Shown here piece after piece: positions 2,728-51,455 of a stretch of DNA of 51,455 nt. The first letter of the stretch is position 1. Every line of letters begins with the position of its first letter. Below the pieces are notes generated by a model. It worked only from the letters and a program-made list of their open reading frames with translations. It did no database searches and was not told the origin of the DNA. Location: the NCBI GenBank assembly GCA_030649205.1, contig JAUSGE010000014.1:92717-144171 (forward strand). The letters are read 5' to 3'. Both the position numbers and the translations under genes were made by a program. Source of the DNA: a bacterium (GTDB taxonomy: Bacteria > Patescibacteriota > Patescibacteriia > Patescibacteriales > GWC2-42-12).

Positions 2728-4161
2728 ATGAAGCTATTTATGATAGGTTGGGATACCAACGAGGAATTTATAGATGTTGCCCTTAAATTGCAAGACCAAG
2801 GGCATGAAATATTGTATTGGGTTGGAGTGGGTAATGATAGAAAATATAATTTTGAAAAATTCAAAAATAAAGTTATATTTCACCGGTTTTATGATGCGGC
2901 TTCAGGCATACCGCCGACAGAGTTGGCAAATACAAATTTCACGCCCCCCGGAGAAGATTTGATCAGGCAATTTCATGAAACAGAATCCATTTTATCCACT
3001 ATGAAATTTTTTGAAAAATTTTTAAAGTCTACTCTGGAAAAAAAGCGTCTTTTCCATTATTTTTTAGAGTATTGGCTCGGAGTCCTTGAAAAATTTAAGC
3101 CGGACGCGATTATCTTTTCTTTATGTCCTCACGCCGGGTTCGATTTCGTGATATATTCTTTGGCCAAATATTTAAAAATAAAAACCATCATGTTTGAATA
3201 CGTTAGAGCGGCCAATAGATTATTATTAATTAATGATTATAAAATCGGCAGCCTTAAGCTAAGAGAAGAAATCAGTAATAATAAAAAATATAAATTAGAA
3301 GATTTAAGCTTGGATATTCAAGAATATTATAAATTCTATGCTCGGGGCGGTGGTGATAAAGTTACTACGCCGGATTTTAAAATTCAAAAAAAGAAGTATT
3401 TGGGAGTTAATCTGTTAATTATAAAAATAAAAATGATTATTAACAGCATATTAGACTTTTCTATTATTAAAAAATCGTTTCTTTTTATATTAAAAAGATT
3501 TAAATCAAATTTAAAAAAAGAATATTGTAAACTGCAAGTTAACCCGGATTTTAACAATAAATATATTTATATAGCTTTGCATTTTCAACCGGAATTAGCG
3601 ACTAGCCCGCTGGGCGGGATATTCATTGATCAAATTTCAATGATAAAAATTTTGTCGGCGTCCCTGCCTAAAGATTGGTTTATTTACGTGAAAGAGCATC
3701 CAGCCCAATGGCTGCCCAGCGGCTTATCTTTTTCAAGTTTTCGCTATGAAGGCTTCTATAAAGAAATCGCAAAACTTAAAAATGTTAATTTAGTGCCAAT
3801 TAATACTGACAGTATTGAATTAATAAATAACTCGCGGCTAGTCGCAACCGTCACCGGTTCAGTCGGCTGGGAGGCGGCTATGAGGTTAAAACCGGTCCTG
3901 GCGTTCGGCTATCCCTGGTATAGGGATTGCCCGGGAGTTTTTAAGGTAAATAATGTTGATTTATGCAAGCAGGTTATTGATTCCGTAAATTCTGGCCTTA
4001 AATTAAATGAACAAGATATTATTAATTATTTAGCGAGCATTGATAAGATAAGTTTTTTCGGTTATTTTATGCAATGGATAAAGGAGCAATCAAAGATAAC
4101 CGGAGCGGAACACTCAAATAATTTTTTTAAGGCGATAGTTTGTGATTTAAATAATAAATAA
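2728..4161 (+). CDS. Capsule-polysaccharide-type glycosyltransferase (probable GT-B)
   Basis: 477 aa. The N-terminal half contains no motif I recognise. The C-terminal half has a segment reading YIALHFQPE...SPLGG, then VKEHPAQ, and later VTGSVGWEAAMRLKPVLAFG. This pattern resembles the nucleotide-sugar domain of capsule synthesis/export proteins and CMP-sugar transferases. The gene starts 3 nt after the CapD-like gene and ends 6 nt before pseB. It may transfer the nonulosonic acid made by the cluster, but the donor is an inference. It does not look like PseG (MurG-like UDP-sugar hydrolase), which the pathway also needs. Confidence 0.6.
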   Translation: MKLFMIGWDTNEEFIDVALKLQDQGHEILYWVGVGNDRKYNFEKFKNKVIFHRFYDAASGIPPTELANTNFTPPGEDLIRQFHETESILSTMKFFEKFLKSTLEKKRLFHYFLEYWLGVLEKFKPDAIIFSLCPHAGFDFVIYSLAKYLKIKTIMFEYVRAANRLLLINDYKIGSLKLREEISNNKKYKLEDLSLDIQEYYKFYARGGGDKVTTPDFKIQKKKYLGVNLLIIKIKMIINSILDFSIIKKSFLFILKRFKSNLKKEYCKLQVNPDFNNKYIYIALHFQPELATSPLGGIFIDQISMIKILSASLPKDWFIYVKEHPAQWLPSGLSFSSFRYEGFYKEIAKLKNVNLVPINTDSIELINNSRLVATVTGSVGWEAAMRLKPVLAFGYPWYRDCPGVFKVNNVDLCKQVIDSVNSGLKLNEQDIINYLASIDKISFFGYFMQWIKEQSKITGAEHSNNFFKAIVCDLNNK

Positions 4162-4167
4162 AATAAT

Positions 4168-5172
4168 ATGAGCTTAAATTTTTTAAAAGATAAAGCAATT
4201 TTAGTAACCGGAGGAACCGGTTCTTTCGGGAAAAATTTCGTTAAGTATTTATTGGAGAATTCTCAGGCAAAAAAAATTATAATTTTTAGCCGGGATGAGT
4301 TTAAGCAATCGCAAATGCAGGCGGAAATTAAGGATGACCGGATTAGATTTTTTTTGGGAGACGTTAGGGATTTACCTCGGCTCCAGCGGGCTTTTCATGG
4401 CGTGGATATAGTGGTGCACGCCGCCGCGTTAAAGCAAGTGCCGACCCTAGAATATAATCCTTTTGAAGCAGTAAAAACTAATATTTTAGGCAGTCAAAAT
4501 GTCGCTGAAGCGGCTATTGACCAAAGTGTTAAAAAAGTTTTATTGATTTCAACGGATAAAGCCGTACAGCCGATAAATCTTTACGGTTCCACCAAGCTTT
4601 GCGCCGAAAAACTATTTATTAATAGTAATTTATATTCAGCTGATAAAACGCTTTTTAGCTGTGTCCGTTATGGTAATGTGGTTGGGAGTCGGGGAAGTAT
4701 CGTGGAATTTTTATTAAAAAATAAGGATGTTAGAAAAGTTTCAATAACCGATGAGCGGATGACGCGTTTTTGGATATCCCTGGAGCAAAGTTTTAAGTTG
4801 GTTTTATTCGCTTTGGAAAATATGGGGGGCGGAGAAATTTTTGTTCCTAGAATTCCCAGTATGAAGTTAATTGATTTATTTGATGCCTTAGCTCCTAAGT
4901 CAGCCAGAGAGATAATCGGCATAAGGCCGGGAGAAAAATTGCATGAGGTTTTATTGACCGAGCAGGAATCAAGGCATACTTTATCTTTGGGAAATTATTA
5001 TGTGATTTTGCCGGAAAATGAAAAAATCTTCGCTGTCAAAGATAGATTTAAAAAAATTCTTAAAAAAAGCGAAAAATTATCGCTAAATTTCTGTTACGCC
5101 AGCGATACTAATAAAGACTGGCTGGTTAAAGAGCAGCTAGCCGCGATTGTTAAACAACTAAAGAAAACATAA
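4168..5172 (+). CDS. pseB: UDP-N-acetylglucosamine 4,6-dehydratase (inverting), PseB-like
   Basis: 334 aa. It has an NAD(P)-binding GGTGSFG near residue 15 and the active-site block STDKA..INLYGSTK, with Tyr139 and Lys143 forming the YxxxK pair. PseB converts UDP-GlcNAc to the 4-keto-6-deoxy-L-arabino sugar, the first step to pseudaminic acid. PseC follows after 4 nt, which is the standard gene order and strongly supports the call. Length matches PseB (about 330-345 aa). The start ATG is preceded by AT-rich sequence without a Shine-Dalgarno. Confidence 0.88.
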   Translation: MSLNFLKDKAILVTGGTGSFGKNFVKYLLENSQAKKIIIFSRDEFKQSQMQAEIKDDRIRFFLGDVRDLPRLQRAFHGVDIVVHAAALKQVPTLEYNPFEAVKTNILGSQNVAEAAIDQSVKKVLLISTDKAVQPINLYGSTKLCAEKLFINSNLYSADKTLFSCVRYGNVVGSRGSIVEFLLKNKDVRKVSITDERMTRFWISLEQSFKLVLFALENMGGGEIFVPRIPSMKLIDLFDALAPKSAREIIGIRPGEKLHEVLLTEQESRHTLSLGNYYVILPENEKIFAVKDRFKKILKKSEKLSLNFCYASDTNKDWLVKEQLAAIVKQLKKT

Positions 5173-5176
5173 AATT

Positions 5177-6280
5177 ATGATACCTTACGGGCATCAATCA
5201 ATAGATAAAAAAGATATTAAGAGCGCGGTAGATGTTTTAAAATCCGATTGGCTGACTCAGGGGCCGAAAATTTTGGAATTTGAAAAATTGCTGGCAAGAT
5301 ATTGCGGCGCTAAGTATGCAGTGGTCTGTTCTAACGGTACAGCCGCTTTGCATTTGGCTTATTTGGCTGCTCGCTTAAACTCTGGTGATGAAGTAATAAC
5401 TACTCCCAATACTTTTGCGGCTACGGCTAATATGCTGCTTGCCGTCGGCGCTAAACCGGTTTTTTGCGATATTAGATTAGACACCTATAATATTGACGAG
5501 AAAAAGATAGAGAGTCTGATTACTGCAAAAACTCGGGCGATTGTACCGGTTCATTTTGCCGGGCAAGCCTGTGAGATGGAAAAAATAAAACAAATTGCGC
5601 AACGGCATAAATTAACGGTGATTGAGGACGCTTGCCACGCGCTGGGCGCCAAGTATAAAAATTATAAAATGGGAAATTGCCGGTATTCTGATCTGGCGGT
5701 TTTTAGCTTTCATCCGGTTAAATCCATTACTACGGGCGAGGGCGGGGCAGTATTGACTAATCGAGAAGGCTTTTATAAAAAAATGCTGGCTTATGGAAAT
5801 CACGGAATACATAAAGATGATCAGGGTAAAAATGTAATGACTGATCTCGGGTACAATTATCGGCTGACCGATATCCAGGCGGCTTTGGGAATTTCACAAT
5901 TGAAAAAGCTGGATAAATTCATTAAATTGCGCCGGCAAGTTGTTAAAGCCTACGAGCAAGGACTGGCCGGGTGCCAAGAAATAATTTTGCCGAAAGAAGC
6001 GCCCGGTGCGTATTCCGGCTGGCACATATATGTAATTTTGGTTAAAGCCGCTGATCGGCGCGATGCTTTGGCGGCGCATTTAAAAAGAGAAGGCATCGGC
6101 GTTAATTTTCATTATCCGGCGGTTTATTCGCATCCTTATTATCGCTATAATGGCTTTAAAGATTTTAGTCTTACTCAGGAAGAGATTTATCATAACTCTT
6201 GTTTAACCTTGCCTTGTTTCCCCGGGCTAAAACAAGCCGAACAGAAATTCGTGATTAAAAAGATTAAAGAATTTTTTTAA
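5177..6280 (+). CDS. pseC: UDP-4-amino-4,6-dideoxy-N-acetyl-L-altrosamine transaminase, PseC-like
   Basis: 367 aa, DegT/DnrJ/EryC1/StrS aminotransferase family. The PLP lysine is K182 in HPVKSITTGEGG, and the upstream EDACHALGA and CSNGTAALHLA segments are the usual cofactor contacts. PseC aminates the product of PseB using glutamate. Full length for the family. It lies 4 nt downstream of pseB and 10 nt upstream of a methylase gene. LegC and other sugar aminotransferases are alternatives, but adjacency to pseB favours PseC. Confidence 0.88.
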   Translation: MIPYGHQSIDKKDIKSAVDVLKSDWLTQGPKILEFEKLLARYCGAKYAVVCSNGTAALHLAYLAARLNSGDEVITTPNTFAATANMLLAVGAKPVFCDIRLDTYNIDEKKIESLITAKTRAIVPVHFAGQACEMEKIKQIAQRHKLTVIEDACHALGAKYKNYKMGNCRYSDLAVFSFHPVKSITTGEGGAVLTNREGFYKKMLAYGNHGIHKDDQGKNVMTDLGYNYRLTDIQAALGISQLKKLDKFIKLRRQVVKAYEQGLAGCQEIILPKEAPGAYSGWHIYVILVKAADRRDALAAHLKREGIGVNFHYPAVYSHPYYRYNGFKDFSLTQEEIYHNSCLTLPCFPGLKQAEQKFVIKKIKEFF

Positions 6281-6290
6281 AAATTATATT

Positions 6291-6965
6291 ATGGAAAAAA
6301 CCATCCAAGAAAAATTCTGGCAGTCAAATTTCGGCAAAGATTATATTAAAAGAAACTATTATACCAATAAAGCTTTGAACGTTTTTTATCTGAATAATTT
6401 TGGCATAACCAGAGCTGACATAAATGCGGAGTTTTTAAAAAATTTGAAAATTAATAACCTGCTGGAGGTTGGCTGTAACGTCGGGAATCAGTTATCTTTA
6501 TTGCAATCACAGGGATTTAAAAACCTTTACGGCATGGATATATCGCCCCTGGCCGTGGAATTTTCTAAAAAAAGAACTAAAAACATAAACGTCATTCTGG
6601 GCAGCGCCCTGGATATTCCCTTTAAAGACGCGTATTTTGATTTAGTTTTTACCTCGGGAGTTTTAATTCACATCAGCCTAAAGAATATGGCCGCGGCAAT
6701 GAAAGAAATTTATCGGACAAGCAGCCGTTATATATTCGGCTATGAGTATTTCAGCGAGAAATATGAAGCAATCAATTACCGCGGCCATAAAGATCGCCTT
6801 TGGAAAGGTAATTTTCCGCAGATGTATCTGAATCTATTTCCCGATTTAAGGCTGGTTAAGGAAAAAAGATTGAAATTTAAGGCAAATGGTTCGAGCGGCA
6901 AGAATGGCCGGAGAGAAAATGAATTATTATCAACCGTATTTTTATTGAAAAAAATAAAAACATGA
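6291..6965 (+). CDS. SAM-dependent methyltransferase, pseudaminic-acid-associated type
   Basis: 224 aa, class I methyltransferase fold. The SAM-binding motif LLEVGCNVGNQL is at about residues 55-66, with an acidic post-II residue in GMDISPLAV and a motif-IV-like FDLVFTSGVLIHI. The C-terminal part (YRGHKDRLWKGNF) resembles methylases annotated as pseudaminic acid biosynthesis-associated. It may methylate the sugar or an intermediate. Its stop codon overlaps the start of the downstream gene (ATGA at 6962), so the two are likely translationally coupled. Confidence 0.75.
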   Translation: MEKTIQEKFWQSNFGKDYIKRNYYTNKALNVFYLNNFGITRADINAEFLKNLKINNLLEVGCNVGNQLSLLQSQGFKNLYGMDISPLAVEFSKKRTKNINVILGSALDIPFKDAYFDLVFTSGVLIHISLKNMAAAMKEIYRTSSRYIFGYEYFSEKYEAINYRGHKDRLWKGNFPQMYLNLFPDLRLVKEKRLKFKANGSSGKNGRRENELLSTVFLLKKIKT

Positions 6966-8743
6966 AAACTTATTTATTATTTGAAATCGCCAATGCCCAC
7001 GGCGGTTCGCCTGATTATATCTATAAACTGATTGATCGGCTGCCGAGCGGAAAAAATATGGGAATTAAATTCCAAGTATTTAAATATGATGAAATAGCCC
7101 TAAAAGATTATCAATGGTATCCGGCATACGAAAAACTTTTTATCAGCGGCTCGCGCTGGAAAAAGATTATTATTTATGCCAAACGGGCCGGGCTTGATGT
7201 CTGGCTGGATATTTTTGATTCTTACAGCCTCAAGGTTCTAAAAGAAAATTTCGCGCGAGTCCGCGGCGTTAAGCTCCAATCTTCAGTTTTAGAAAATTTA
7301 AAAGTGCTGAATGGCCTGGCGGAAATTATCAGCGGCCGGAAAATAAAAATAATTATAAATGTCGCCGGCCGAACCATGAAAAATATAAATAACATCTACG
7401 ATAATTTTCGCCGGGATTATTTGGGCAATGAAATAATTATTCAGACAGGATTTCAGGGTTATCCGACAAAAAAAGAAGATTTGCTCCTCTGGAAAATAGC
7501 CAAATTAAAAGAACATTTTCCGAAATTAGCCGTTTCTTTCGCCGATCATGCCGCCGGCGATAATCCTTTGGCCCTGGAAGTTCCTCCAGGCGCCATTTTA
7601 GCCGGGGCGGAATATATTGAAAAGCATGTTTGTTTGGACCGAAAAAATGCTAAGTATGACTATCAGTCGGCCATCGAGCCGTCAGAATGCGAGCGGCTGA
7701 TTGGTTTGATCAATGACACTGAAAAAATGTTAGGCCAAAAGTTCATTGCTAAAAATGAACAAAAGTATCTAAGTTCAACCATTGAAAAGCCGGTGGCGGC
7801 TGAAAATTTTTTTGCTCAAGACGTGGTTAGATTTAAAAAGCTTGATTTTAAGCGAACCGCTCAAGACGGAATCAGCATTCAGGAGCTGAAAAAAACGCCC
7901 AATCAGCATTTCATTATGAATAAGGACGTGGCCAGAGGCCAAACATTGAAAAAAAATGATTTGCGCAAGGCCCGTATAGGCGTGATTATCGCCTGCCGGA
8001 TGAAATCAACGCGCCTGAAAAACAAAGCTGTTCTGCCGATTGGCCAATATAATTCAATTGAGCGCTGTATCATGAATTGCAAAAAAATTAAATCAGCTGA
8101 TGAAATAATTTTAGCCACCTCGGCGCTTAAGGAAGACCAGATTCTTAAGCAATACGCTTTAAAACATAAAATTAAATTCTTTGCCGGGGATCCCGAGGAT
8201 GTAATGCAGCGATTTTTGGGCGCGGCTAAAAAATATAAAATAGATATTATTATTCGCGTTACCGGGGATTGCCCCATAGTTTCTTACGAAATGGCCGAAC
8301 ATCTTCTTCTAAAGCATTTTCAAATCGGAGCTGATTACAGCGGTCCAAAGGAATTTGCCGTCGGACAAAACAGCGAAGTCTATAATGTCCACGCGCTTAA
8401 TAAGATAATTGAATATTTGGGAGACGCGAGATACTCTGAATATATGACCTGGTATATGTTTAGCAATAAAGATATTTTTGACGTTCAGCTGGTTGATCTG
8501 CCTAAAGACTGGGTCCGTCCATATCGCCTGACTCTTGACGAACAGTCTGATCTGGACATGTTTAATGAACTTTTTAGAAAATTAGGCAGCCGGGAGGCCA
8601 GTCTTAAAAATATATTTAAGGTTCTTGACAGTAATCCTTATATTTCGCGGATCAATCATTTTACCCGTCTTAAATATAAGGCTGATAAAAAATTAATTAA
8701 AATGCTGAATAAAAAAACAAGAATTAGATTGCCAAAAAAATAA
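6962..8743 (+). CDS. Fusion: NeuB-like nonulosonate synthase + SpsF/PseF-like cytidylyltransferase
   Basis: 593 aa with two enzyme parts. Residues ~1-335 resemble NeuB/SpsE: EIANAHGG at the start, the metal/phosphate-site block SFADHAAGDNPLA, GAEYIEKHVCLD, and a C-terminal antifreeze-like (SAF) stretch ending in GQTLKKNDLRKARIG. Residues ~337-593 are a nucleotidyltransferase of the CMP-sugar/SpsF type: IACRMKSTRLKNKAVLPIG, then RVTGDCPIVS and DWVRPYRLTLDE. The protein could condense PEP with a hexosamine and activate the product with CTP. The NeuB part is more divergent than the PseI gene at 11681 and may be specialised or catalytically weak. Separate SpsE and SpsF proteins are the usual arrangement. 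Confidence 0.8.
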   Translation: MKTYLLFEIANAHGGSPDYIYKLIDRLPSGKNMGIKFQVFKYDEIALKDYQWYPAYEKLFISGSRWKKIIIYAKRAGLDVWLDIFDSYSLKVLKENFARVRGVKLQSSVLENLKVLNGLAEIISGRKIKIIINVAGRTMKNINNIYDNFRRDYLGNEIIIQTGFQGYPTKKEDLLLWKIAKLKEHFPKLAVSFADHAAGDNPLALEVPPGAILAGAEYIEKHVCLDRKNAKYDYQSAIEPSECERLIGLINDTEKMLGQKFIAKNEQKYLSSTIEKPVAAENFFAQDVVRFKKLDFKRTAQDGISIQELKKTPNQHFIMNKDVARGQTLKKNDLRKARIGVIIACRMKSTRLKNKAVLPIGQYNSIERCIMNCKKIKSADEIILATSALKEDQILKQYALKHKIKFFAGDPEDVMQRFLGAAKKYKIDIIIRVTGDCPIVSYEMAEHLLLKHFQIGADYSGPKEFAVGQNSEVYNVHALNKIIEYLGDARYSEYMTWYMFSNKDIFDVQLVDLPKDWVRPYRLTLDEQSDLDMFNELFRKLGSREASLKNIFKVLDSNPYISRINHFTRLKYKADKKLIKMLNKKTRIRLPKK

Positions 8744-8778
8744 GGCTGTCGGAAGCGGGAGGTTTAAGCAAGAATTAT

Positions 8779-8969
8779 ATGAAAATCAGACCAATAAAAA
8801 TTAAGACGCCAAAAGGGTGGCGATTAATCTGACCCAGTTAGCCGACTTTTATAATCGCCGAGATGTCGGGCAATCATAACCAAAATATTACTAAAAAATT
8901 ATCGGTAAAATAGCTGCTAATAATATAGATAAGGGTACACCGCTTAGAGCGTCTAAATATATTATATAA
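8779..8969 (+). pseudogene. Decayed pseI/neuB copy (both ends kept, middle deleted)
   Basis: Not an open frame, but the bases read as the two ends of a PseI gene. The beginning gives MKIRPIKIKTPKGWRLI, then a stop, then FIIAEMSGNHNQN. This matches the start of the intact pseI at 11681 (MKIKPLKIKTPKGIRLI...FIIAEMSGNHNQD). The end gives IGKIAANNIDKGTPL, matching its C-terminus (IGQTAKENIARGTPL). About 330 codons between them are gone, and at least two stops lie in the remaining N-terminal part. It fills the gap between the NeuB fusion and hisH. A simple reading is an older pseI made redundant and then deleted. Confidence 0.8.
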
Positions 8970-8991
8970 AATTAGCAATTATGAATATTTT

Positions 8992-9603
8992 ATGATCGGC
9001 ATAGTTAATTATGGAGCTGGCAATTTGCAATCTGTGAAAAATTCACTAGATTTTTTAAGTATTCCCAATATAGTTATTAACAAATCGGAGGAAATTAAGA
9101 ATTGTGATCGGTTAATTTTGCCTGGAGTAGGCGCTTTCGGACCGGCCATGAAAAAGCTTAATAAACTGGGGTTTTCTCAAGAAATAAAAAATTTCGTCGG
9201 CCAAAAAAAACCGATTTTAGGAATTTGTTTAGGCATGCAATTACTTTTTGAGGTAAGTGAAGAACTTGGATCGCATCAAGGTTTGGGATTGATTAAGGGA
9301 AAAGTTTTACCATTAAATAAAAAAGTGAAAGATTTACCCATTCCCCATATTGGCTGGAATAATATTATCATGAAAAAGAGTTCGCCACTTTTAAAAAACA
9401 TAGAAGATGGTTCTTGTTTTTATTTTAATCATAGTTTTTACTGCGAACCGGTCGATGAGCTAGCGGTTACGGCAGACGCTGATTATTATATAAAAATCAG
9501 TTCTGTCGTTGAAAAAGATAATGTGTATGGTTGTCAATTTCATCCGGAAAAAAGTCAATCCCGCGGTTTAACGTTATTAGATAATTTTCAGAAACTCATA
9601 TGA
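8992..9603 (+). CDS. hisH: HisH-like glutamine amidotransferase of the sugar-amidation trio
   Basis: 203 aa, class I glutaminase. The nucleophile is Cys79 in GICLGMQLL, and the His-Glu pair is H184/E186 in CQFHPEKS. It hydrolyses glutamine to feed ammonia to the HisF-like partner encoded directly downstream with a 4-nt ATGA overlap. No other histidine biosynthesis genes are present, and the next gene is a WbuX-type sugar amidotransferase. It is therefore most likely the HisH2-type subunit of acetamidino-sugar synthesis rather than of histidine synthesis. Confidence 0.88.
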   Translation: MIGIVNYGAGNLQSVKNSLDFLSIPNIVINKSEEIKNCDRLILPGVGAFGPAMKKLNKLGFSQEIKNFVGQKKPILGICLGMQLLFEVSEELGSHQGLGLIKGKVLPLNKKVKDLPIPHIGWNNIIMKKSSPLLKNIEDGSCFYFNHSFYCEPVDELAVTADADYYIKISSVVEKDNVYGCQFHPEKSQSRGLTLLDNFQKLI

Positions 9604-10385
9604 TTAAGATCAGATTAATTCCAGTGTTATACATTAAAAATGGGCTAATCGTCAGAAGCGAAAATTTTTCTTATCATCAAAATATCGGCAATGTAATAAA
9701 TGAAGCCAGCCGTTATAATGAATGGAACGTCGATGAATTAATATATATTGATATTAGCCGGGAGAAGTGTTACGATTTACGTCGAGACGATCTTTATATA
9801 AAGTCGCATGATTCAATTGAAAAAATTATCAGCGAAATAGCTAAAGTTTGTTTTATGCCCTTGACCATTGGCGGAGGCGTTAGAAATATTAACGATATTA
9901 GTTATCGAATTAAAAATGGCGCTGATAAAATCACCTTAAATACCGGGGCGTTTGAACATCCGAAATTGATTTCACAAGCTGCCAATAAATTTGGTTCTCA
10001 ATGCGTGGTAATATCAGTAGATTATAAAATTATTGACAATCAACCGATAGTATTTACGAATTTCGGGCAAAAAAATACAAAAACAACAGCATTTTCTTGG
10101 ATAAAAATTTGTGAAAATTTAGGCGCCGGTGAAATTTTTCTCAATTCTATTGACCGCGATGGAAGGGCAAACGGCTATGATATTGATACGATAAGCAGGG
10201 TTGTTGAATCGACAAAACTACCCGTGGTTGCCTGCGGCGGCGCTGGTGGTCTGTATGATTTTGTTAATTTGGCTAAAAAAGTGAACATATCGGCTATAGC
10301 GGCCGGAAATATATTCCATTTCACGGAGCTTAGCTACCCTCGGGCTAAAATATTACTCAAAAAAGAAAAATTAAACTTTAGATAA
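9600..10385 (+). CDS. hisF: HisF-like ammonia-channel subunit lacking the first catalytic Asp
   Basis: 261 aa, TIM barrel of the HisF family. GGGVRNI and GAGEIFLNSIDRDG are well conserved. The residue that aligns with catalytic Asp11 of imidazole glycerol phosphate synthase is Tyr11 (IPVLYIKNG instead of the usual CLDVKDG), while the second Asp is kept (D141 in ISVDYK). A true cyclase should therefore be impaired. This fits a HisF2 role, passing ammonia from HisH to a sugar amidotransferase as in the Pseudomonas O-antigen system. It overlaps hisH by 4 nt and precedes the WbuX-like gene by 17 nt. Confidence 0.85.
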   Translation: MIKIRLIPVLYIKNGLIVRSENFSYHQNIGNVINEASRYNEWNVDELIYIDISREKCYDLRRDDLYIKSHDSIEKIISEIAKVCFMPLTIGGGVRNINDISYRIKNGADKITLNTGAFEHPKLISQAANKFGSQCVVISVDYKIIDNQPIVFTNFGQKNTKTTAFSWIKICENLGAGEIFLNSIDRDGRANGYDIDTISRVVESTKLPVVACGGAGGLYDFVNLAKKVNISAIAAGNIFHFTELSYPRAKILLKKEKLNFR

Positions 10386-10402
10386 TTAAGTTAAAATTAA
10401 TT

Positions 10403-11629
10403 ATGAACAAAAATATCAATAAAGTAATCTATTGCAAAAAATGTGCTTATCCATCCAGTTCAGCTGTTCCTCTGGCTTTCGGCGAGGACGGTATTTGCTC
10501 GGGCTGTAAAACCAGTAGCCAAAGCCGTGGAATAGATTGGGAAAGCCGCAGAAAAGAATTCGAAAGATTAATTGAAGAATATCGAAATAAAGACGGTAGC
10601 GGATATGACTGTATTATTCCGGTGAGCGGCGGTAAAGACAGTTATTTCCAAATTCACTTAATCAAAAAGATTTATAACCTCAATCCCTTGTTGGTCACTT
10701 ATAATGGGAATAATTATACCCCGACGGGAATGAAAAATCTTATTAATATGCGGAATGTATTCGGCGTTGATCATATTTTTTTTACGCCAAGCGTTGATAC
10801 TTTGAAAAAATTAAATAGGTTAGGAATGCGTATTATGGGCCGCGTTAATTGGCATTATGCCGCCGGAATTTTTACTTATCCGATCAGAGTGGCCGTTGAA
10901 ACAATGACGCCGTTAATGATTTGGGGAGAACACGGCTTTATGGATCTGGGTGGAATGCACTCTTATGATGATTTTGTTGAATTTACTTATCGTTTTCGCC
11001 ATGAACATGCCTTAGGAGGTTATGAATGGTTTGACTTTCTAAAATTAGCCCCGAAATTTGATGAGAAATTAACCAAACAGGAATTAATTTCTTTGATGTA
11101 TCCGTCGGATCAGGAAATTGCCAAGGCGGGAGTGAGAGGCATTTACATTTCCAACTATTTTCAATGGGATGCAAATGTGCATGGCCCGATGATGGTTAAA
11201 AAATATGGATTCAAAGTATCTGAAGAACCGTTTGAACGAACATATCGCTTGATGTCAAATTTAGATGATATGCATGAAAATGGAATTCATGATTATATGA
11301 AATTTGTAAAATTCGGTTATGGCCGGGCTACCGATCACACTAGTAAAGACATTCGTTCTGGTATTATGACTCGACAAGAAGCAATTGAAATCGTCAAAAA
11401 AATGGATTGTATTAAATCCAAAGATTTGCGCCGTTGGTTAGACTATGTGGGTTGGACCGAAAAAGAATTTGATAGAGTAGCCGATACTTTTCGTGATCCG
11501 CGGGTATGGTGGATAAAAAATGGCGAATGGTGGAAAGACAATGTTTGGGGAAAGCCGTCTTCTTACGGCAAGGTTAATTTATCGCCGGCTATGCAAGAAA
11601 AGTATCGCCAGAATAAAAAAGCCGTTTAA
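10403..11629 (+). CDS. N-acetyl sugar amidotransferase (WbuX/WbpG/PseA-like)
   Basis: 408 aa. An N-terminal four-cysteine site (C11, C14, C32, C35) probably binds metal. An ATP-pyrophosphatase PP-loop SGGKDS follows at residues 75-80. This is the architecture of enzymes that turn an N-acetyl group into an acetamidino group with ammonia from HisH/HisF. PseA in Campylobacter and WbpG in Pseudomonas are related. Together with pseB, pseC and pseI it points to a 7-acetamidino derivative of pseudaminic or legionaminic acid; which one is not settled by sequence. Confidence 0.88.
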   Translation: MNKNINKVIYCKKCAYPSSSAVPLAFGEDGICSGCKTSSQSRGIDWESRRKEFERLIEEYRNKDGSGYDCIIPVSGGKDSYFQIHLIKKIYNLNPLLVTYNGNNYTPTGMKNLINMRNVFGVDHIFFTPSVDTLKKLNRLGMRIMGRVNWHYAAGIFTYPIRVAVETMTPLMIWGEHGFMDLGGMHSYDDFVEFTYRFRHEHALGGYEWFDFLKLAPKFDEKLTKQELISLMYPSDQEIAKAGVRGIYISNYFQWDANVHGPMMVKKYGFKVSEEPFERTYRLMSNLDDMHENGIHDYMKFVKFGYGRATDHTSKDIRSGIMTRQEAIEIVKKMDCIKSKDLRRWLDYVGWTEKEFDRVADTFRDPRVWWIKNGEWWKDNVWGKPSSYGKVNLSPAMQEKYRQNKKAV

Positions 11630-11680
11630 GACATAAAGTTAGCATCCGCTATGTTGTAGCTTGATTGAAAAACTATTTTT

Positions 11681-12751
11681 ATGAAAATAAAACCGTTAAA
11701 AATTAAAACACCTAAAGGCATAAGATTGATCGGCCCGGGCCAGCCGGTTTTTATCATCGCCGAAATGTCTGGCAACCATAACCAGGACATTGATCAGGCT
11801 TATAAAATTATTGACGCGGCTATTGAGGCGGGAGCCGATGCCGTAAAAATGCAAACTTATACCGCTGATACCATAACCATTGATTGCGATAACGAATATT
11901 TTCAAGTCAAAGCAAATGATGCTTGGAAAGGCCAGACTCTTTACAGTTTGTATAAGAAAGCTTATACGCCATGGGAATGGCAGGCTAAATTAAAAAAATA
12001 CGGCGAAGCCAAAGGAATTTTAGTTTTTTCCACGCCGTTTGACGCGACGGCCGTGGATTTTTTAGAAAAATTGAATGTCGCAATCTATAAAGTGGCTTCG
12101 TTTGAAGTGGTCGATATACCGTTGCTTAAAAAAATTGGGCAAACAAAAAAACCGGTAATTATGTCGCGGGGTATGGCCTCGGTGGAAGAAATAAAATTTG
12201 CGATTAAAACATTGATAGAAAATGGTTGTCCGCAGGTGGCAATTTTACATTGTGTCAGCGGCTACCCGGCAAAACCGGAAGAAATGAATTTAGCCACCAT
12301 TGCCGATATTCGCAAAAGATTTAAAGTTATTGCCGGTTTATCCGACCATACTTTGGGCATAACAAGTTCAATCGCTGCCGCGGCATTAGGCGCGTCAATT
12401 ATTGAAAAACATTTAACGATTAAACGCTCCGCCGGCGGTCCGGACGCCGGCTTTTCTCTTGAGCCGGATGAATTTAAAAATTTAGCTCGAGCGGTGCGTG
12501 AAGCCGAACAAGCCATAGGCCGAGCGGCTTATGGCGCTGGCAAAAAAGAAGCGGCAAACATAATTTTCAGAAAATCTTTATTTGTTGTGAGCGATATGAA
12601 AAAAGGTGAAAAATTTAATCCCCAAAATGTTCGTTCTATTCGCCCCGGTAACGGCCTGGCGCCGAAATATTTTGACCGGGTTATCGGCCAAACCGCCAAA
12701 GAAAATATCGCCCGAGGCACGCCTTTAAGCCGGCGCTTGGTAAAAAGATAA
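11681..12751 (+). CDS. pseI: Pseudaminic acid synthase, PseI-like
   Basis: 356 aa. It begins with the PseI-typical FIIAEMSGNHNQ (residues 24-35) and MQTYTADT, carries the synthase core (GLSDHTLG, IEKHLTIKR), and ends in a SAF/antifreeze-like domain (IRPGNGLAPKY, IARGTPLSRRL). The enzyme condenses PEP with 6-deoxy-AltdiNAc. The wording of the N-terminal motif favours PseI over NeuB or LegI. A decayed second copy lies at 8779-8969. The stop is followed after 1 nt by the start of the PseH-YdcF gene. Confidence 0.9.
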   Translation: MKIKPLKIKTPKGIRLIGPGQPVFIIAEMSGNHNQDIDQAYKIIDAAIEAGADAVKMQTYTADTITIDCDNEYFQVKANDAWKGQTLYSLYKKAYTPWEWQAKLKKYGEAKGILVFSTPFDATAVDFLEKLNVAIYKVASFEVVDIPLLKKIGQTKKPVIMSRGMASVEEIKFAIKTLIENGCPQVAILHCVSGYPAKPEEMNLATIADIRKRFKVIAGLSDHTLGITSSIAAAALGASIIEKHLTIKRSAGGPDAGFSLEPDEFKNLARAVREAEQAIGRAAYGAGKKEAANIIFRKSLFVVSDMKKGEKFNPQNVRSIRPGNGLAPKYFDRVIGQTAKENIARGTPLSRRLVKR

Positions 12752-12752
12752 T

Positions 12753-13805
12753 ATGCCGGAAAATAAATTTAAAATAGCAAAAGCCGAAGCAGGCGATGCT
12801 AAAGCGATTTGGCTGATTAGAAATAGCCGGCCGGTAAGGAAAAATTCCCTAACTGGCAAAGCCATAGATTTTAAGAGCCATAAGGCTTGGTTTGCAAATA
12901 AATATTTTAATCGTCCCGTAAATCATTGTTTTGTATTGAAAGAAAAAAAAGGGATAATCGGCTACTGCCGCTTTGATTTATGTAAAAATAAGTATGTCGT
13001 ATCAATCGCGGTTGGCCCGTCTTATCATGGCTCTGGGTTTGGCGATAGGCTGTTAAGCCGAGCGGTTGAATTCGTTGAAGCAAATAAGGAAATTATCGCG
13101 GAAATAAAGCTGAAAAATTTACAGTCAATAAAGTTATTTCAAAAAAACGGCTTTGAAATTTATCGGCAGGACAAAGAAATATTCCATTTAAAGCTCAATC
13201 GGCAAAAAAATAGTTTTTATAAAGACGCGGTTAAGCTATATTATCTTTTGCTGAAACAACCGCCGCGAAAGAGCCAGGCGATTATCTGGCCGCAAGGCGA
13301 TAGATATGACCGCGGCCGGAAGGTATTGGAGCTCTATCAGAGGAAATGGGCGCCGATAATTGCCATAACCGGCAACAATGCCTTAATTGGCGAAAATGAC
13401 AGAGCGGAAGAAAAAAATATATCAGTTGAAAGAATGGCAAGCTGGCTTATACGCCGCGGAGTAAGCCAGCAAGATATTATTATAGATAAAAATTCGTTAA
13501 ATACTAAAGAGCAGGCAGGAAATATAATGAATTTAGCAAAAAGCAAGAAGTATAAAAGCATAATTCTGGTTGGCTCGGCCTATTACCAGCCGCGGGCGTT
13601 TTTAACTTTTTTGAAATCCGCGGCAATAAGCGGGTGGCAAGGCAGAATTATCAATCAGCCGGCCGTTATGCCCTGGAATAAAGTGCCGGGCGGGAGAAAA
13701 AAATTTGTTTGGCAGTATTTTATGGAAGAGATGGAAAAGATTAGTAAATATAAGAAAGATTTGGTTAACATTAGACAGGGGATCAAGAATTTAACAAAAG
13801 CATAG
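12753..13805 (+). CDS. Fusion: PseH-like GNAT acetyltransferase + YdcF/ElyC (DUF218) domain
   Basis: 350 aa. Residues 1-~150 are a GNAT acetyltransferase: SHKAWFANKYF, SIAVGPSYHGSGFGDRLLSRA (the acetyl-CoA loop) and LFQKNGFEIY. This pattern is like PseH, which acetylates the 4-amino sugar made by PseC. Residues ~165-330 match the DUF218/YdcF fold: AIIWPQGDRYDRG, IAITGN, DKNSLNTKEQAGN, and VGSAYYQPRA. DUF218 proteins are often envelope-linked, but no signal or membrane segment is seen here. Fusion of these two domains is unusual. The gene ends 5 nt from the convergent sugar transferase. Confidence 0.8.
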   Translation: MPENKFKIAKAEAGDAKAIWLIRNSRPVRKNSLTGKAIDFKSHKAWFANKYFNRPVNHCFVLKEKKGIIGYCRFDLCKNKYVVSIAVGPSYHGSGFGDRLLSRAVEFVEANKEIIAEIKLKNLQSIKLFQKNGFEIYRQDKEIFHLKLNRQKNSFYKDAVKLYYLLLKQPPRKSQAIIWPQGDRYDRGRKVLELYQRKWAPIIAITGNNALIGENDRAEEKNISVERMASWLIRRGVSQQDIIIDKNSLNTKEQAGNIMNLAKSKKYKSIILVGSAYYQPRAFLTFLKSAAISGWQGRIINQPAVMPWNKVPGGRKKFVWQYFMEEMEKISKYKKDLVNIRQGIKNLTKA

Positions 13806-13810
13806 AAAAT

Positions 13811-15178
13811 TTACATGCCTTTTTGGCTTAAAACGGTGGCGATGGTTTTTAAAATTATTGACAGGTCTAAAAACAAGGATCTGTTTTTTATATAGAAGAG
13901 ATCGTATTGCAGTTTCTTTAAACTGTCCGCCGGCGAAGGCGAATGGTATTCGCCGGAAATTTGGTCCGGACCGGTCAAGCCGGGTTTGACCAAAGTTCTT
14001 TGGCCGTAAAAAGGGATAAGTTTTTCTAAATTGGCGGCTAATTCAGGCCGTTCCGGGCGCGGGCCCACGAAGCTCATTTCATGCTTTAGGATATTGATTA
14101 CCTGCGGCAGTTCGTCAATTCTGGTTTTTCTTAAGATATTGCCGAATTTGGTAATGCGCGCGTCGGCCGCCTGAGTGGGCGAGCGGTCATTGTTTTCTTC
14201 TTTCATGGTCCGAAATTTGATCAGCCGGAAAATTTTATTGTCGCGCCCCGATCGCTCCATAATAAAAAATGCCGGACCGCGGCTTTCCAGTTTGATAATG
14301 GCCGCGATCGCCAGCCAAAAGGGGAGAGTAATAATCAAAATAATCAGCGCCAGAATAAAATCGTAAATTAACTTTACGCGGTCAAACCACAATTTAGCGC
14401 TTTCATTCAGATTTTCCAAAAACCACATTTGATTAACCGTGTCCAAAGGAATTCTGCCGGTAATGGTTTCGTAAAAATTCGGCAGGCTGACATAGTTAAT
14501 TCGGTAGGGCAGGCAGTTAAATAAGGCGGTTCTTAAAGTTTCCGACTGGTGCGGGTCATGGGATAAAACAATCATATCAAGCTTATGGCCGGAGATTAGT
14601 TTTTCCAGATCGGCGATTGGCTTGATGTCCTGCCCGTCCGGCAGACAGGCGGTTTGCTCAGCCGTTTTATCGTCAACTATAAAACTTATGTTAAAACCCA
14701 GATGCGGCTTTTGCCTGAACTCCGCGATAATTTCCCGAACCAGATTGTTATAACCGACAATGCCGATGTTTATTTTCGGCAAGTATGATTTTAACGACCA
14801 GTTGTAAAAATGGCGCCAAAGATAAAATAAGGCGGAAAAAATTATGATATAAAGAAACAAATTTGTTTTTGGCGCGATGCCAACGCCGGGAATTAAGTAG
14901 AAAAAGGCTACCGAGGCCAAGGCCGCGACGGCTAGCGCCCGGCCGCCTAATTGATAAAATTTGGAATTATTCACCGCCAGGTTTAGATTGTAAAGATTTG
15001 AAATATAAAAAATTATCAGCCATAAAAAGAAAATCGCGGTGAACGGCCAAAAATGCGCCGCCCAGATTTCGGCCTTGTAGCTGCCCCAATACCTGGCCGT
15101 TAAAGTTAAATATAGGGTAAAATAAAGGACAATTATATCGCCGGCGATTAGCGTAAATTTTTTGACATTATTATTCAT
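13811..15178 (-). CDS. Undecaprenyl-phosphate sugar-1-phosphate transferase (WcaJ/RfbP family)
   Basis: 455 aa. Several hydrophobic helices occur in the first ~130 residues, then a nucleotide-binding-like middle region. The C-terminal bacterial sugar transferase domain has one re-entrant/membrane helix and the motifs KFRTM, RIDELPQVINIL and MSFVGPRPERPE. It should load the first sugar phosphate onto the lipid carrier at the inner membrane. A short insert reading ACLPDGQ (near 14628-14655) is encoded by a small palindrome and looks like a repeat inserted in frame. The minus-strand promoter lies directly upstream with the -10 box 6 nt from the ATG. Convergent with the Pse cluster. Confidence 0.88.
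   Translation of the reverse strand: MNNNVKKFTLIAGDIIVLYFTLYLTLTARYWGSYKAEIWAAHFWPFTAIFFLWLIIFYISNLYNLNLAVNNSKFYQLGGRALAVAALASVAFFYLIPGVGIAPKTNLFLYIIIFSALFYLWRHFYNWSLKSYLPKINIGIVGYNNLVREIIAEFRQKPHLGFNISFIVDDKTAEQTACLPDGQDIKPIADLEKLISGHKLDMIVLSHDPHQSETLRTALFNCLPYRINYVSLPNFYETITGRIPLDTVNQMWFLENLNESAKLWFDRVKLIYDFILALIILIITLPFWLAIAAIIKLESRGPAFFIMERSGRDNKIFRLIKFRTMKEENNDRSPTQAADARITKFGNILRKTRIDELPQVINILKHEMSFVGPRPERPELAANLEKLIPFYGQRTLVKPGLTGPDQISGEYHSPSPADSLKKLQYDLFYIKNRSLFLDLSIILKTIATVLSQKGM
14628..14655. repeat. Small palindrome inside the sugar transferase gene
   Basis: CTGCC and GGCAG arms around a 5-nt loop, with CCTG/CAGG further out. On the minus strand it encodes the stretch ACLPDGQ between the Rossmann-like middle domain strands (after TAEQT). 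The surrounding protein is conserved in style but this peptide is not part of the family core, so it looks like a mini-element tolerated in a loop. Confidence 0.5.
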
Positions 15179-49502: not shown

Positions 49503-49660
49503 CCGGATACTTGTTGTTGTGCGATGTCGCTCGGTCTGCCCGAGAGGGCAGGCGAGCGGCGAGCGCAACGAGGGCTTGCCCGCGCGCGTTGCGCAAAATA
49601 GCGAGCGCCGAGCGTTAGTGAGGGCGAGCGATTTTGCACAACGTTTACGAGTATCCGAAG
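49503..49660. mobile_element. MITE-like inverted-repeat element
   Basis: Imperfect inverted ends: CGGATACTTGTTGTTGTGC at the left, and at the right GTATCCG preceded by GCACAACG. The interior is GC-rich with many GAGCG/CGCTCG motifs in both orientations and has no ORF. A copy of the left end also occurs at 50118-50142. It is probably a small non-autonomous element. Confidence 0.6.
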
Positions 49661-49798
49661 TTTTATTTATTCTACCTTATAATTGTTGATAATTAAAGAA
49701 TAAATAAAATTTGCGCGGAGCAGGTAAGGCTGAATTTTTAGTTTTTACCTTAAGTTAGCTGTTTTTTAATTTTTTATGTTTGTTATTAGAAATTTAAC
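49661..49798. other. AT-rich intergenic stretch
   Basis: No ORF, RNA or repeat recognised between the MITE-like element and the small RNA promoter. Confidence 0.6.
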
Positions 49799-49826
49799 TT
49801 GACATTTATGGCAGAAGTGCTATATT
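49799..49826 (+). promoter_or_regulatory. Strong promoter of a small RNA unit
   Basis: -35 TTGACA (49799-49804), 16-nt spacer, -10 TATATT (49821-49826). Nothing translatable follows before the terminator. Confidence 0.8.
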
Positions 49827-49832
49827 AGTAAC

Positions 49833-49908
49833 AGAGTATCAAGCCGCGGAAACCTCACCAAAGGTGGACCACTAAAAACATCTTCTTGTTCGCAAGAGGG
49901 TGTTTTTA
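49833..49908 (+). ncRNA. Candidate small RNA (~75 nt), unidentified
   Basis: Transcription from the promoter above should start near 49833. The RNA contains no ATG-initiated ORF. It has a CACC-AAA-GGTG hairpin near 49855-49866 and a strong 3' terminator. It matches no RNA family I know. The start is estimated from the -10 box. Confidence 0.55.
49878..49908 (+). terminator. Intrinsic terminator with TTCG tetraloop
   Basis: An 11-bp stem (ACATCTTCTTG with CAAGAGGGTGT, including G-U pairs) closed by TTCG and followed by T5. It should end the small RNA before the tRNA-like gene. Confidence 0.88.
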
Positions 49909-49923
49909 TTTTGGCTTTTTTCA

Positions 49924-49932
49924 TGCTATGAT
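49924..49932 (+). promoter_or_regulatory. Extended -10 promoter of the tRNA-like gene
   Basis: TGCTATGAT, an extended -10 element, lies 16 nt before the first acceptor base. The -35 region (TTTATT around 49904) is weak, as is common for extended -10 promoters. Confidence 0.45.
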
Positions 49933-49948: not shown

Positions 49949-50033
49949 GGAGAGTAAAATGCCTCGGAGGCATCGCGGTTTGATACTCCGTTGGTTCGCT
50001 TTTGCGGATGAGGTTCGACTCCTCTGCTCTCCG
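49949..50033 (+). tRNA. Class II tRNA-like gene with 8-bp acceptor and 4-bp T stem
   Basis: 85 nt. Acceptor GGAGAGTA pairs with TGCTCTCC over 8 bp (49949-49956 with 50025-50032). The T arm is GAGG-TTCGACT-CCTC (4 bp). A fifth T-stem pair would be T-T, so 8/4 fits better than 7/5. The D arm has 6 bp with a CGG loop (49959-49973), as in selenocysteine tRNA, and there is no U8. The variable arm has 6 bp with a TTTT loop (49994-50009). The anticodon loop TTGATAC suggests GAU (Ile), with one mismatch in its stem; UGA (Ser) is a poorer reading. Discriminator G, as in Ser/Sec tRNAs; CCA is not encoded (CCG). Probably serine-like in shape. Confidence 0.6.
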
Positions 50034-50045
50034 CCGCGCTAAAGG

Positions 50046-50069
50046 CCATCTCACTGCGAGGTGGTTTTT
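50046..50069 (+). terminator. Intrinsic terminator after the tRNA-like gene
   Basis: Stem CCATCTC/GAGGTGG (7 bp, one G-U) with a 5-nt loop, followed by TTTTT, 13 nt after the tRNA-like 3' end. Confidence 0.85.
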
Positions 50070-50117
50070 GGTTACCAGTGATAAAATTAAAAAACTATGA
50101 ATTCAGCCTTATCTTCT

Positions 50118-50142
50118 CCGCCGGATACTCGTTGTTATACGC
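50118..50142. repeat. Solo end of the MITE-like element
   Basis: CGCCGGATACTCGTTGTTATACG resembles the left end at 49503 (CGGATACTTGTTGTTGTGC). No matching right end is seen nearby. Confidence 0.5.
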
Positions 50143-50645: not shown

Positions 50646-51455
50646 TTAAACTGTTTTGGGAATTAAAAGATTGACTATTCGCTTAAGATTGACGGTTAGG
50701 TAGATGAGCAAGCTCCGTAAATGCACTCTCCATTTTCCCCGATGCTTGGCCTTGCCCAATCCGTGCCGATTTTTTACTTCCGCGAATTTCTGTTCGACTT
50801 TGTAGCGTAAGTTTCTCAAATGCAAGTAATGTTTGTTTTTGTCTTTCTTGATTTTAACTGTTCTCATGTTGTTCCGAGGGATAGTGTAATCCAGAATATT
50901 CCGCTTTTCCAGTTCGTCCGCATGGCCGACATAGCCTTTATCTCCTCCTTGTTTCCGGATGGCATCTTGTCCGCGGTGATCGCGTTCTTTGCCTGCGAGG
51001 GGAATAAGCTGAGATTCGTCGGTTCGGTTCGCTCCAGTGGTAATCACCGCCGTCACTAGTTCGGTTTCCGCATCGTCATTAGCATGGCTTTTGTAGCCGT
51101 ACCAGCCTTGGCCGTTTGATTCTTTTCTGCCGAATTCAGCTTCCGGGTCGGAAGTGTTGCGATCAATGTAGGTTTTATCGTTTTTATCCCGCTTAGCCTT
51201 GGCGCACCTTTTTAAGTCAACATTAGCCTCCAGGCCGGTGGCGTCCGCGTTCCGCTTGTCTGATATTTTAATGCCCAGCCGCTCCGCTTCGTCCAGCAAT
51301 ATTCTGTATGACCCATGAAACCTGGCGATAGAAATCAGCGAGACCGGATTCTCTTCCGCCGTCTTCTTTTAAAAAATCGGCGAATTCTTTCTCGAGTTGG
51401 GTGCCGGGAAAATTCAATTGGATGTCCCTCTTTAATAATTCTTTTTGCCCTACAA
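50646..51455 (-). pseudogene. IS5/IS1182-like DDE transposase, frameshifted, 5' end outside the window
   Basis: The main frame runs from about 51368 to the stop at 50646, beyond the TTG at 51299. It reads KKTAEENPVSLISIARFHG and includes NADATGLEAN (first Asp region), WYGYKSH, GGDKGYVGHADE (second Asp) and RYKVEQKFAEVKNRHG (Glu region). The N-terminal part from 51455 to ~51369 is in another frame (...EKEFADFLK). Removing one A from the run at 51367-51370 (read on the minus strand) joins them as DFLKKTAEE. So either the IS is inactive or the run holds a sequencing error. Confidence 0.8.

Follow-up and report, generated by a model that had tools for sequence, protein, structure and literature searches.

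A tRNA-like gene with a covarying antisense RNA: a candidate RNA-RNA toxin-antitoxin-like module in Patescibacteria

T-box riboswitches are cis-acting leaders with a specifier loop and a T-box motif, located upstream of the gene they regulate, and they recognize tRNAs via the anticodon region. To our knowledge, no natural RNA is devoted to silencing a single tRNA through base pairing with the anticodon arm, and the openly licensed literature that was searched contains no precedent for an antisense RNA specific to one tRNA. The allo-tRNAs of Mukai et al. (2017), as presented in a 2020 review, have 8/4 or 9/3 acceptor branches and have been reported from Clostridia, Proteobacteria and Acidobacteria (PMC7609411). 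Two-RNA systems include SdsR and RyeA, which are mutually cis-encoded RNAs (PMC6610125), and CreT/CreA, whose CreT toxins likewise target the supply of tRNAs (PMC8501985). Regarding tRNA charging in bacteria, SerRS recognizes the variable arm, G73 and the acceptor pairs G1-C72 and G2-C71, and AlaRS uses G3:U70, A73, G2-C71 and G4-C69, neither of them depending on the anticodon (PMC9976931).

The window, i.e. the whole 51,455-nt stretch of DNA analysed here, is part of contig C49 of a 1.22-Mb genome in 50 contigs, called G000. It harbours a tRNA-like gene at 49949-50033, as the first-pass annotation had observed, and this gene is real. The proposed 8/4 class II fold was reproduced by RNAfold on these positions alone, with an 8-bp acceptor, a 6-bp D stem with a 3-nt loop, a 6-bp variable arm and a 4-bp T stem, and the folding energy has a z-score of -3.0 relative to shuffles. 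The finer details of that description also hold: the anticodon reads GAU (49982-49984), G is the discriminator base, U8 is missing, and T would face T at the fifth position of the T stem. The anticodon stem is made of 4 bp and closes a 9-nt loop, because pair 31:39 is T-T. CCA is not encoded, as for many ordinary tRNAs of G000.

ARAGORN reported a tRNA-Ile(GAT) at 49949-50035, and the best Rfam model was tRNA-Sec, below threshold (40 bits versus a cut-off of 47). A tRNA-Ile(GAU) is a class I tRNA with A73, whereas this gene encodes a class II tRNA with G73. Normal tRNA-Ile(GAU) and tRNA-Ile(UAU) genes are present elsewhere in G000, and the former makes the tRNA-like dispensable for Ile decoding. 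tRNA-Sec, which is characterized by a UCA anticodon, a 13-bp 8/5 branch and the presence of SelA, was rejected given the GAU anticodon, the 12-bp branch, the sub-threshold Rfam score and the fact that SelA was not found in G000.

A second predicted transcription unit is located about 115 nt upstream of the tRNA-like gene on the same strand. Promoter and terminator signals point to two separate units, each of which would be transcribed on its own, and the locus is organized as follows.

49715..49746, no strand: left arm of an inverted repeat, 32 nt, 88% complementary, flanking the whole two-RNA unit
49799..49826, + strand: antisense RNA promoter, TTGACA, 16-nt spacer and TATATT with extended TG (from sequence; layout near-universal among homologous loci)
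49832..49913, + strand: putative antisense small RNA of about 80 nt (start deduced from the promoter, end set by its own terminator)
49834..49849, + strand: antisense RNA segment 1, complementary to tRNA 49973-49988 (anticodon arm), 16 nt including 2 G-U
49853..49872, + strand: antisense RNA segment 2 (hairpin), complementary to tRNA 49991-50013 (variable arm and 5' T-stem strand)
49874..49913, + strand: intrinsic terminator of the antisense RNA (fold and T run)
49924..49932, + strand: extended -10 of the tRNA-like gene, TGCTATGAT (from sequence; a TGnTATAAT-like element is at the equivalent place in most homologues)
49949..50033, + strand: 8/4 class II tRNA-like (allo-tRNA) with a serine-type body, anticodon GAU and discriminator G73 (ARAGORN, fold, 15-sequence alignment)
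49982..49984, + strand: anticodon GAU (ARAGORN, alignment), with flanking U33 and A37 invariant in 15/15 aligned members
50046..50069, + strand: intrinsic terminator of the tRNA-like gene (fold, sequence)
50090..50121, no strand: right arm of the inverted repeat, partner of 49715..49746

The tRNA-like gene has promoter and terminator signals of its own, as the first-pass annotation had stated, namely the extended -10 element at 49924-49932 and the terminator at 50046-50069; the strong TTGACA at 49799 is not part of it but of the antisense RNA. The 5'-most 16 nt of the latter, GAGTATCAAGCCGCGG, can pair with the anticodon-arm sequence TCGCGGTTTGATACTC (49973-49988), and the predicted duplex energies at this locus are about -27.5 kcal/mol for site 1 and about -26.5 kcal/mol for site 2. 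The two segments do not follow each other in the order expected of a plain antisense RNA but are permuted, which means that the RNA is more than an inverted copy of the tRNA. Its promoter is near consensus in almost all loci and, as judged by eye, looks stronger than the tRNA-like promoters.

The antisense RNA, with its terminator, directly precedes the tRNA-like gene in most loci. The upstream RNA might then be the 5' leader of the tRNA gene, a T-box-like attenuator sensing the tRNA anticodon and controlling read-through of the first terminator. Several features make this very unlikely. The antisense RNA is downstream of the tRNA-like in L157, L160, L301 and two pairs of G000, most of them with a clear promoter of its own, the tRNA-like of the window has its own extended -10, and no Rfam T-box match was reported at the locus. 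Moreover, the predicted pairing is not confined to a specifier the size of a codon but spans the whole anticodon arm. A cis-acting leader was thus rejected as a general model.

BLAST searches, in which the first query carried short flanks of the tRNA-like, revealed homologues in 13 of 192 genomes, including the source genome. Homologous loci are on contigs labelled Patescibacteria, Parcubacteria, Uhrbacteria or Magasanikbacteria, which places the host within the Patescibacteria (candidate phyla radiation). Fifteen 8/4 tRNA-like sequences were aligned and used to build a covariance model. In the order, the model matched 13 of 111 genomes; the corresponding counts were 13 of 381 for the class and 4 of 380 for a sample drawn across the phylum. 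In the alignment, 96.1% of the cloverleaf cells are paired, with double-sided changes at 24 of 29 pairs (83 such cells), and none of 500 shuffles matched any of these values. Helices 1 and 5 are paired at 99.2% and 100%, respectively, in the 15 homologues. The eighth acceptor pair, whose covariation the first-pass annotation had proposed as a check, is formed in 15/15 homologues and changes from A-U to G-C in one Ala-type member. The T-loop TTC, U33 and A37 are kept in all 15 members, and pair 31:39 is broken in 10 of them. Judging from these comparisons, the tRNA-like fold is not due to chance.

All 30 distinct 8/4 tRNA-likes that we collected in Patescibacteria, i.e. a 27-member set and three more, have an antisense partner nearby on the same strand. 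This partner was not a criterion for finding them, save for the short flanks in the first BLAST query. The sole covariance-model match without a partner, L161, reads as an ordinary tRNA-Ser(GGA). A distant pair was detected in another family of the phylum (L301, genome G630, near 1501-1640), with an ambiguous anticodon, AAC or UAA, and a downstream antisense RNA complementary to the anticodon and variable arms. L084 (G175:C7) harbours a class I 7/5 tRNA of the alanine type (GAU, G3:U70, A73) with an antisense RNA upstream, indicating that the design extends beyond 8/4 tRNAs.

The anticodons of the 27-member set are GAU (24), GCG (2) and GAC (1). Twenty-five members have G73 and a long variable arm, and G1-C72 and G2-C71 are kept. 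The two GCG members (L159 and L166) have A73, G3:U70, G2-C71 and G4-C69, which is the bacterial alanine set. The acceptor GGAGAG/CTCTCC-G matches those of the host tRNA-Ser(GCU) and tRNA-Ser(CGA). As SerRS and AlaRS ignore the anticodon, a Ser or Ala body combined with an anticodon for Ile, Arg or Val is expected to give a missense tRNA, and the family would place Ser or Ala at common codons of these three amino acids. Allo-tRNAs are characterized by a 12-bp branch in the 8/4 or 9/3 form, together with serine or alanine identity and a non-matching anticodon, and both features are seen here. The serine-accepting tRNA for Ile codons put forward in the first-pass annotation fits these predicted identity elements and their conservation; that reading had overlooked the linked antisense RNA, with which the odd tRNA becomes one half of a two-RNA module.

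The complementarity between the two RNAs was analysed across loci. At site 1 (tRNA positions 26-39), 371 of 378 intermolecular cells pair, among sequences that are related and hence not independent, from loci that span many genera. At the variable positions of this site 236 of 243 cells pair, versus a mean of 150 and a maximum of 177 after shuffling, and none of 5000 shuffles reached the observed value. The mean predicted duplex energies are -25.9 kcal/mol for cognate versus -12.1 kcal/mol for non-cognate combinations at site 1, and -25.5 versus -15.4 kcal/mol at site 2 (0/10000 permutations for each site). Substitutions at positions 27-32 generate up to six pair types per position. The loci thus compared display a conserved, covarying two-site complementarity between the tRNA-like and the predicted antisense RNA. 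With covariation both within and between the RNAs, chance and decay are excluded, which makes it extremely improbable that the gene encodes an Ile or Sec tRNA, be it ordinary or unusual, or is a pseudogene, and that its complementarity is fortuitous, in spite of the Ile and Sec labels given by ARAGORN and Rfam.

With two RNA genes, one antisense to the other, the locus has the layout of an RNA-RNA toxin-antitoxin system, and we lean, without great confidence, towards a module of this type in which a missense tRNA is silenced by a dedicated two-site antisense RNA. The toxin would be a body with serine identity (alanine elsewhere) and the anticodon for a common codon of another amino acid, here AUC/AUU for Ile. 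If charged and free, the tRNA-like would insert serine at isoleucine codons and harm the cell. AUY represents 5.6% of the codons in nearby genes, and hence a missense tRNA that was always active at Ile codons would be expected to do damage; even low activity would be costly. The 5' end of the antisense RNA would mask the whole anticodon arm, and its hairpin the variable arm and the 5' T-stem strand. These parts are those needed for decoding, SerRS recognition and folding, and their masking would keep the tRNA-like silent. As a rule, tRNAs are long-lived and small RNAs short-lived. Upon loss of the module or arrest of its transcription, the antisense RNA would decay before the tRNA, which would be released. 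An antisense partner of this kind best explains how a missense tRNA can be tolerated.

We scanned the G000 genome for T-arm-like motifs with a nearby same-strand antisense match and found exactly four pairs behind a TTGACA/TTGACG promoter. The first one is the window locus, and the second is an 8/4 GAU copy at C24:14259, whose anticodon stem differs from that of the window copy, with an antisense RNA that differs to match. The third, at C24:9314, comprises a class I alanine-type tRNA-like with G3:U70, A73 and a GUC-like loop, and the fourth, at C24:2952, a class I tRNA-like with U73 and an altered T-loop; in both, the antisense RNA is downstream. Two of the four pairs have degenerate tRNA-likes, one of which has U73 and no Ser or Ala identity, and this counts against the toxin-antitoxin reading.

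The degenerate copies speak for a decoy, i.e. a tRNA-like that never decodes but soaks up the antisense RNA, or else a synthetase, a tRNA-modifying enzyme or a toxin that cuts anticodons. The pairing is two-sided and does not indicate which RNA is the effector, so that the complementarity would look identical, and the anticodon stem is often broken at 31:39. The tRNA-like may decode poorly, given the 31:39 mismatch, the 9-nt anticodon loop and the lack of U8 and of an encoded CCA, and this too counts against the toxin-antitoxin reading. Nevertheless, the conserved U33, A37 and T-loop TTC are what a working tRNA would keep, and together with the acceptor and the Ser/Ala identity they exceed the needs of a mere sponge. 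Moreover, the predicted pairing of segment 1 is much stronger with its own tRNA-like than with the best ordinary tRNA, both for the window copy (-31.3 versus -21.1) and for the C24 copy (-27.3 versus -14.8). We therefore consider a decoy function unlikely.

None of the 43 ordinary tRNAs of G000 has a same-strand antisense match with a score of at least 11 within 400 nt; the antisense-looking matches at ordinary tRNAs are on the opposite strand and mostly correspond to neighbouring tRNA repeats. Chance complementarity is ruled out by these control tRNAs and by the shuffles. We also scanned one genome for each of 84,980 species with a DNA pattern for the GGAGAGTA...TGCTCTCCG body. The GAU tRNAs collected in this manner all have the antisense RNA; they are on contigs labelled as Patescibacteria lineages, except for one contig with no label beyond 'bacterium'. 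This partner is absent from nearly all the tRNA-Ser(GCU) of Bacteroidota and Cyanobacteria that share the same acceptor and body. The one exception is a tRNA-Ser(GCU) of Hyunsoonleella (L205), with a 15-nt complementary stretch downstream; we took it as a chance match since it has no TTGACA-type promoter. A partial direct repeat behind a tRNA-Thr(CGT) (L022) was discarded as an antisense site, as its orientation is wrong and it looks like the remnant of a tRNA copy. A phage or plasmid origin was rejected because no similar sequence was found in plasmid or phage collections. In viral contigs, the acceptor pattern yielded 68 loci, none with GAU plus an antisense partner, and a second pattern yielded none.

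The location of the tRNA-like in an accessory zone, also proposed at first pass, was supported by the 32-nt inverted repeat around the two-RNA unit, which is also found in G005 and G007, and by the nucleotidyltransferase and HEPN genes on C24; the neighbours of the pair loci are mostly non-shared. A 127-bp stretch upstream of the unit (49516-49642) has a 97% identical copy in contig C42 (L127) and is an interspersed repeat of G000. Downstream of the unit, an ORF for a DDE transposase (DDE_Tnp_1) is found on the opposite strand (50646-51299). On C24, the L033 stretch (G000:C24:1-16000) contains the three further tRNA-like/antisense pairs within 12 kb (2798-14350), along with two nucleotidyltransferase genes, one of them followed by a HEPN gene, and genes for a helix-turn-helix protein and a protein of the 23S rRNA intervening-sequence type. 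This stretch is accessory and rich in toxin-antitoxin genes. The nucleotidyltransferase-type gene and its downstream partner at 5280-6260 of L033 are next to a tRNA-like pair, and their homologues (50% and 57% identity) are next to the pair of L164 (G012:C2). A run of 4680 N (9404-14083 of L033), which may be an assembly gap or masking, separates two of the pairs.

A MITE-like mobile element would be expected to have terminal inverted repeats and different insertion sites; the 32-nt repeat around the unit and the mostly non-shared neighbours no more than hint at mobility. As mobile elements are where killing after segregation would be most useful, this counts against the toxin-antitoxin reading. 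The missense tRNA might instead be a useful regulator, placing Ser or Ala at Ile codons at a low level or under stress, with the antisense RNA as its control. This regulated mistranslation would account equally for the identity and pairing data, the independent promoters of the two RNAs would permit regulation, and allo-tRNAs are translation-competent in E. coli (PMC7609411). However, the module is patchy in the order, the class and the phylum-wide sample, its gene neighbours mostly differ between loci and one genome may hold several unlike copies, all of which is more reminiscent of a selfish or addictive element than of a core regulator. The cost expected at the AUY frequency of the nearby genes also argues against it, and we regard it as improbable. 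The toxin-antitoxin-like module itself may serve to make a mobile unit addictive, to defend the cell or to regulate mistranslation. Whether it represents a new class of RNA-only addiction modules, patchily distributed through Patescibacteria and composed of a code-corrupting tRNA toxin (Ser or Ala body, foreign sense anticodon) and a two-site antisense antidote, is in our view evenly balanced.

If the module works in this way, bacteria carry a toxin directed at the genetic code itself and kept in check by an RNA antidote. Allo-tRNAs, whose role the 2020 review describes as speculative (PMC7609411), would thereby gain a function, and antisense partners would be predicted for the allo-tRNAs of other phyla as well. 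Taken alone, the tRNA-like would add a new member to a known kind, the allo-tRNAs, whereas the two-RNA module matches no known kind that we could find. It shares with the allo-tRNAs, as described in that review, the 8/4 branch, the long variable arm, serine or alanine (G3:U70) identity and foreign anticodons. It differs from them by its occurrence in Patescibacteria, its mostly GAU anticodons and the antisense partner of every 8/4 member found; no such partner is mentioned in the section devoted to allo-tRNAs in that review (PMC7609411).

Like T-box riboswitches, the module would involve recognition of a tRNA by RNA through the anticodon region, but here a separate small RNA, sometimes encoded downstream, would pair with the whole anticodon arm and with the variable arm and T stem. 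As in type I toxin-antitoxin systems, an antisense RNA antidote would be encoded beside the toxin gene; in contrast with them, there is no toxin peptide, and the target is a tRNA rather than an mRNA. The closest systems in logic are SdsR/RyeA and CreT/CreA, with RNA on both sides. Unlike CreT/CreA, the scheme proposed here involves no CRISPR machinery, and it is distinguished from both systems in that the toxin would be the miscoding tRNA itself and the antidote would pair with it at two sites, in permuted order.
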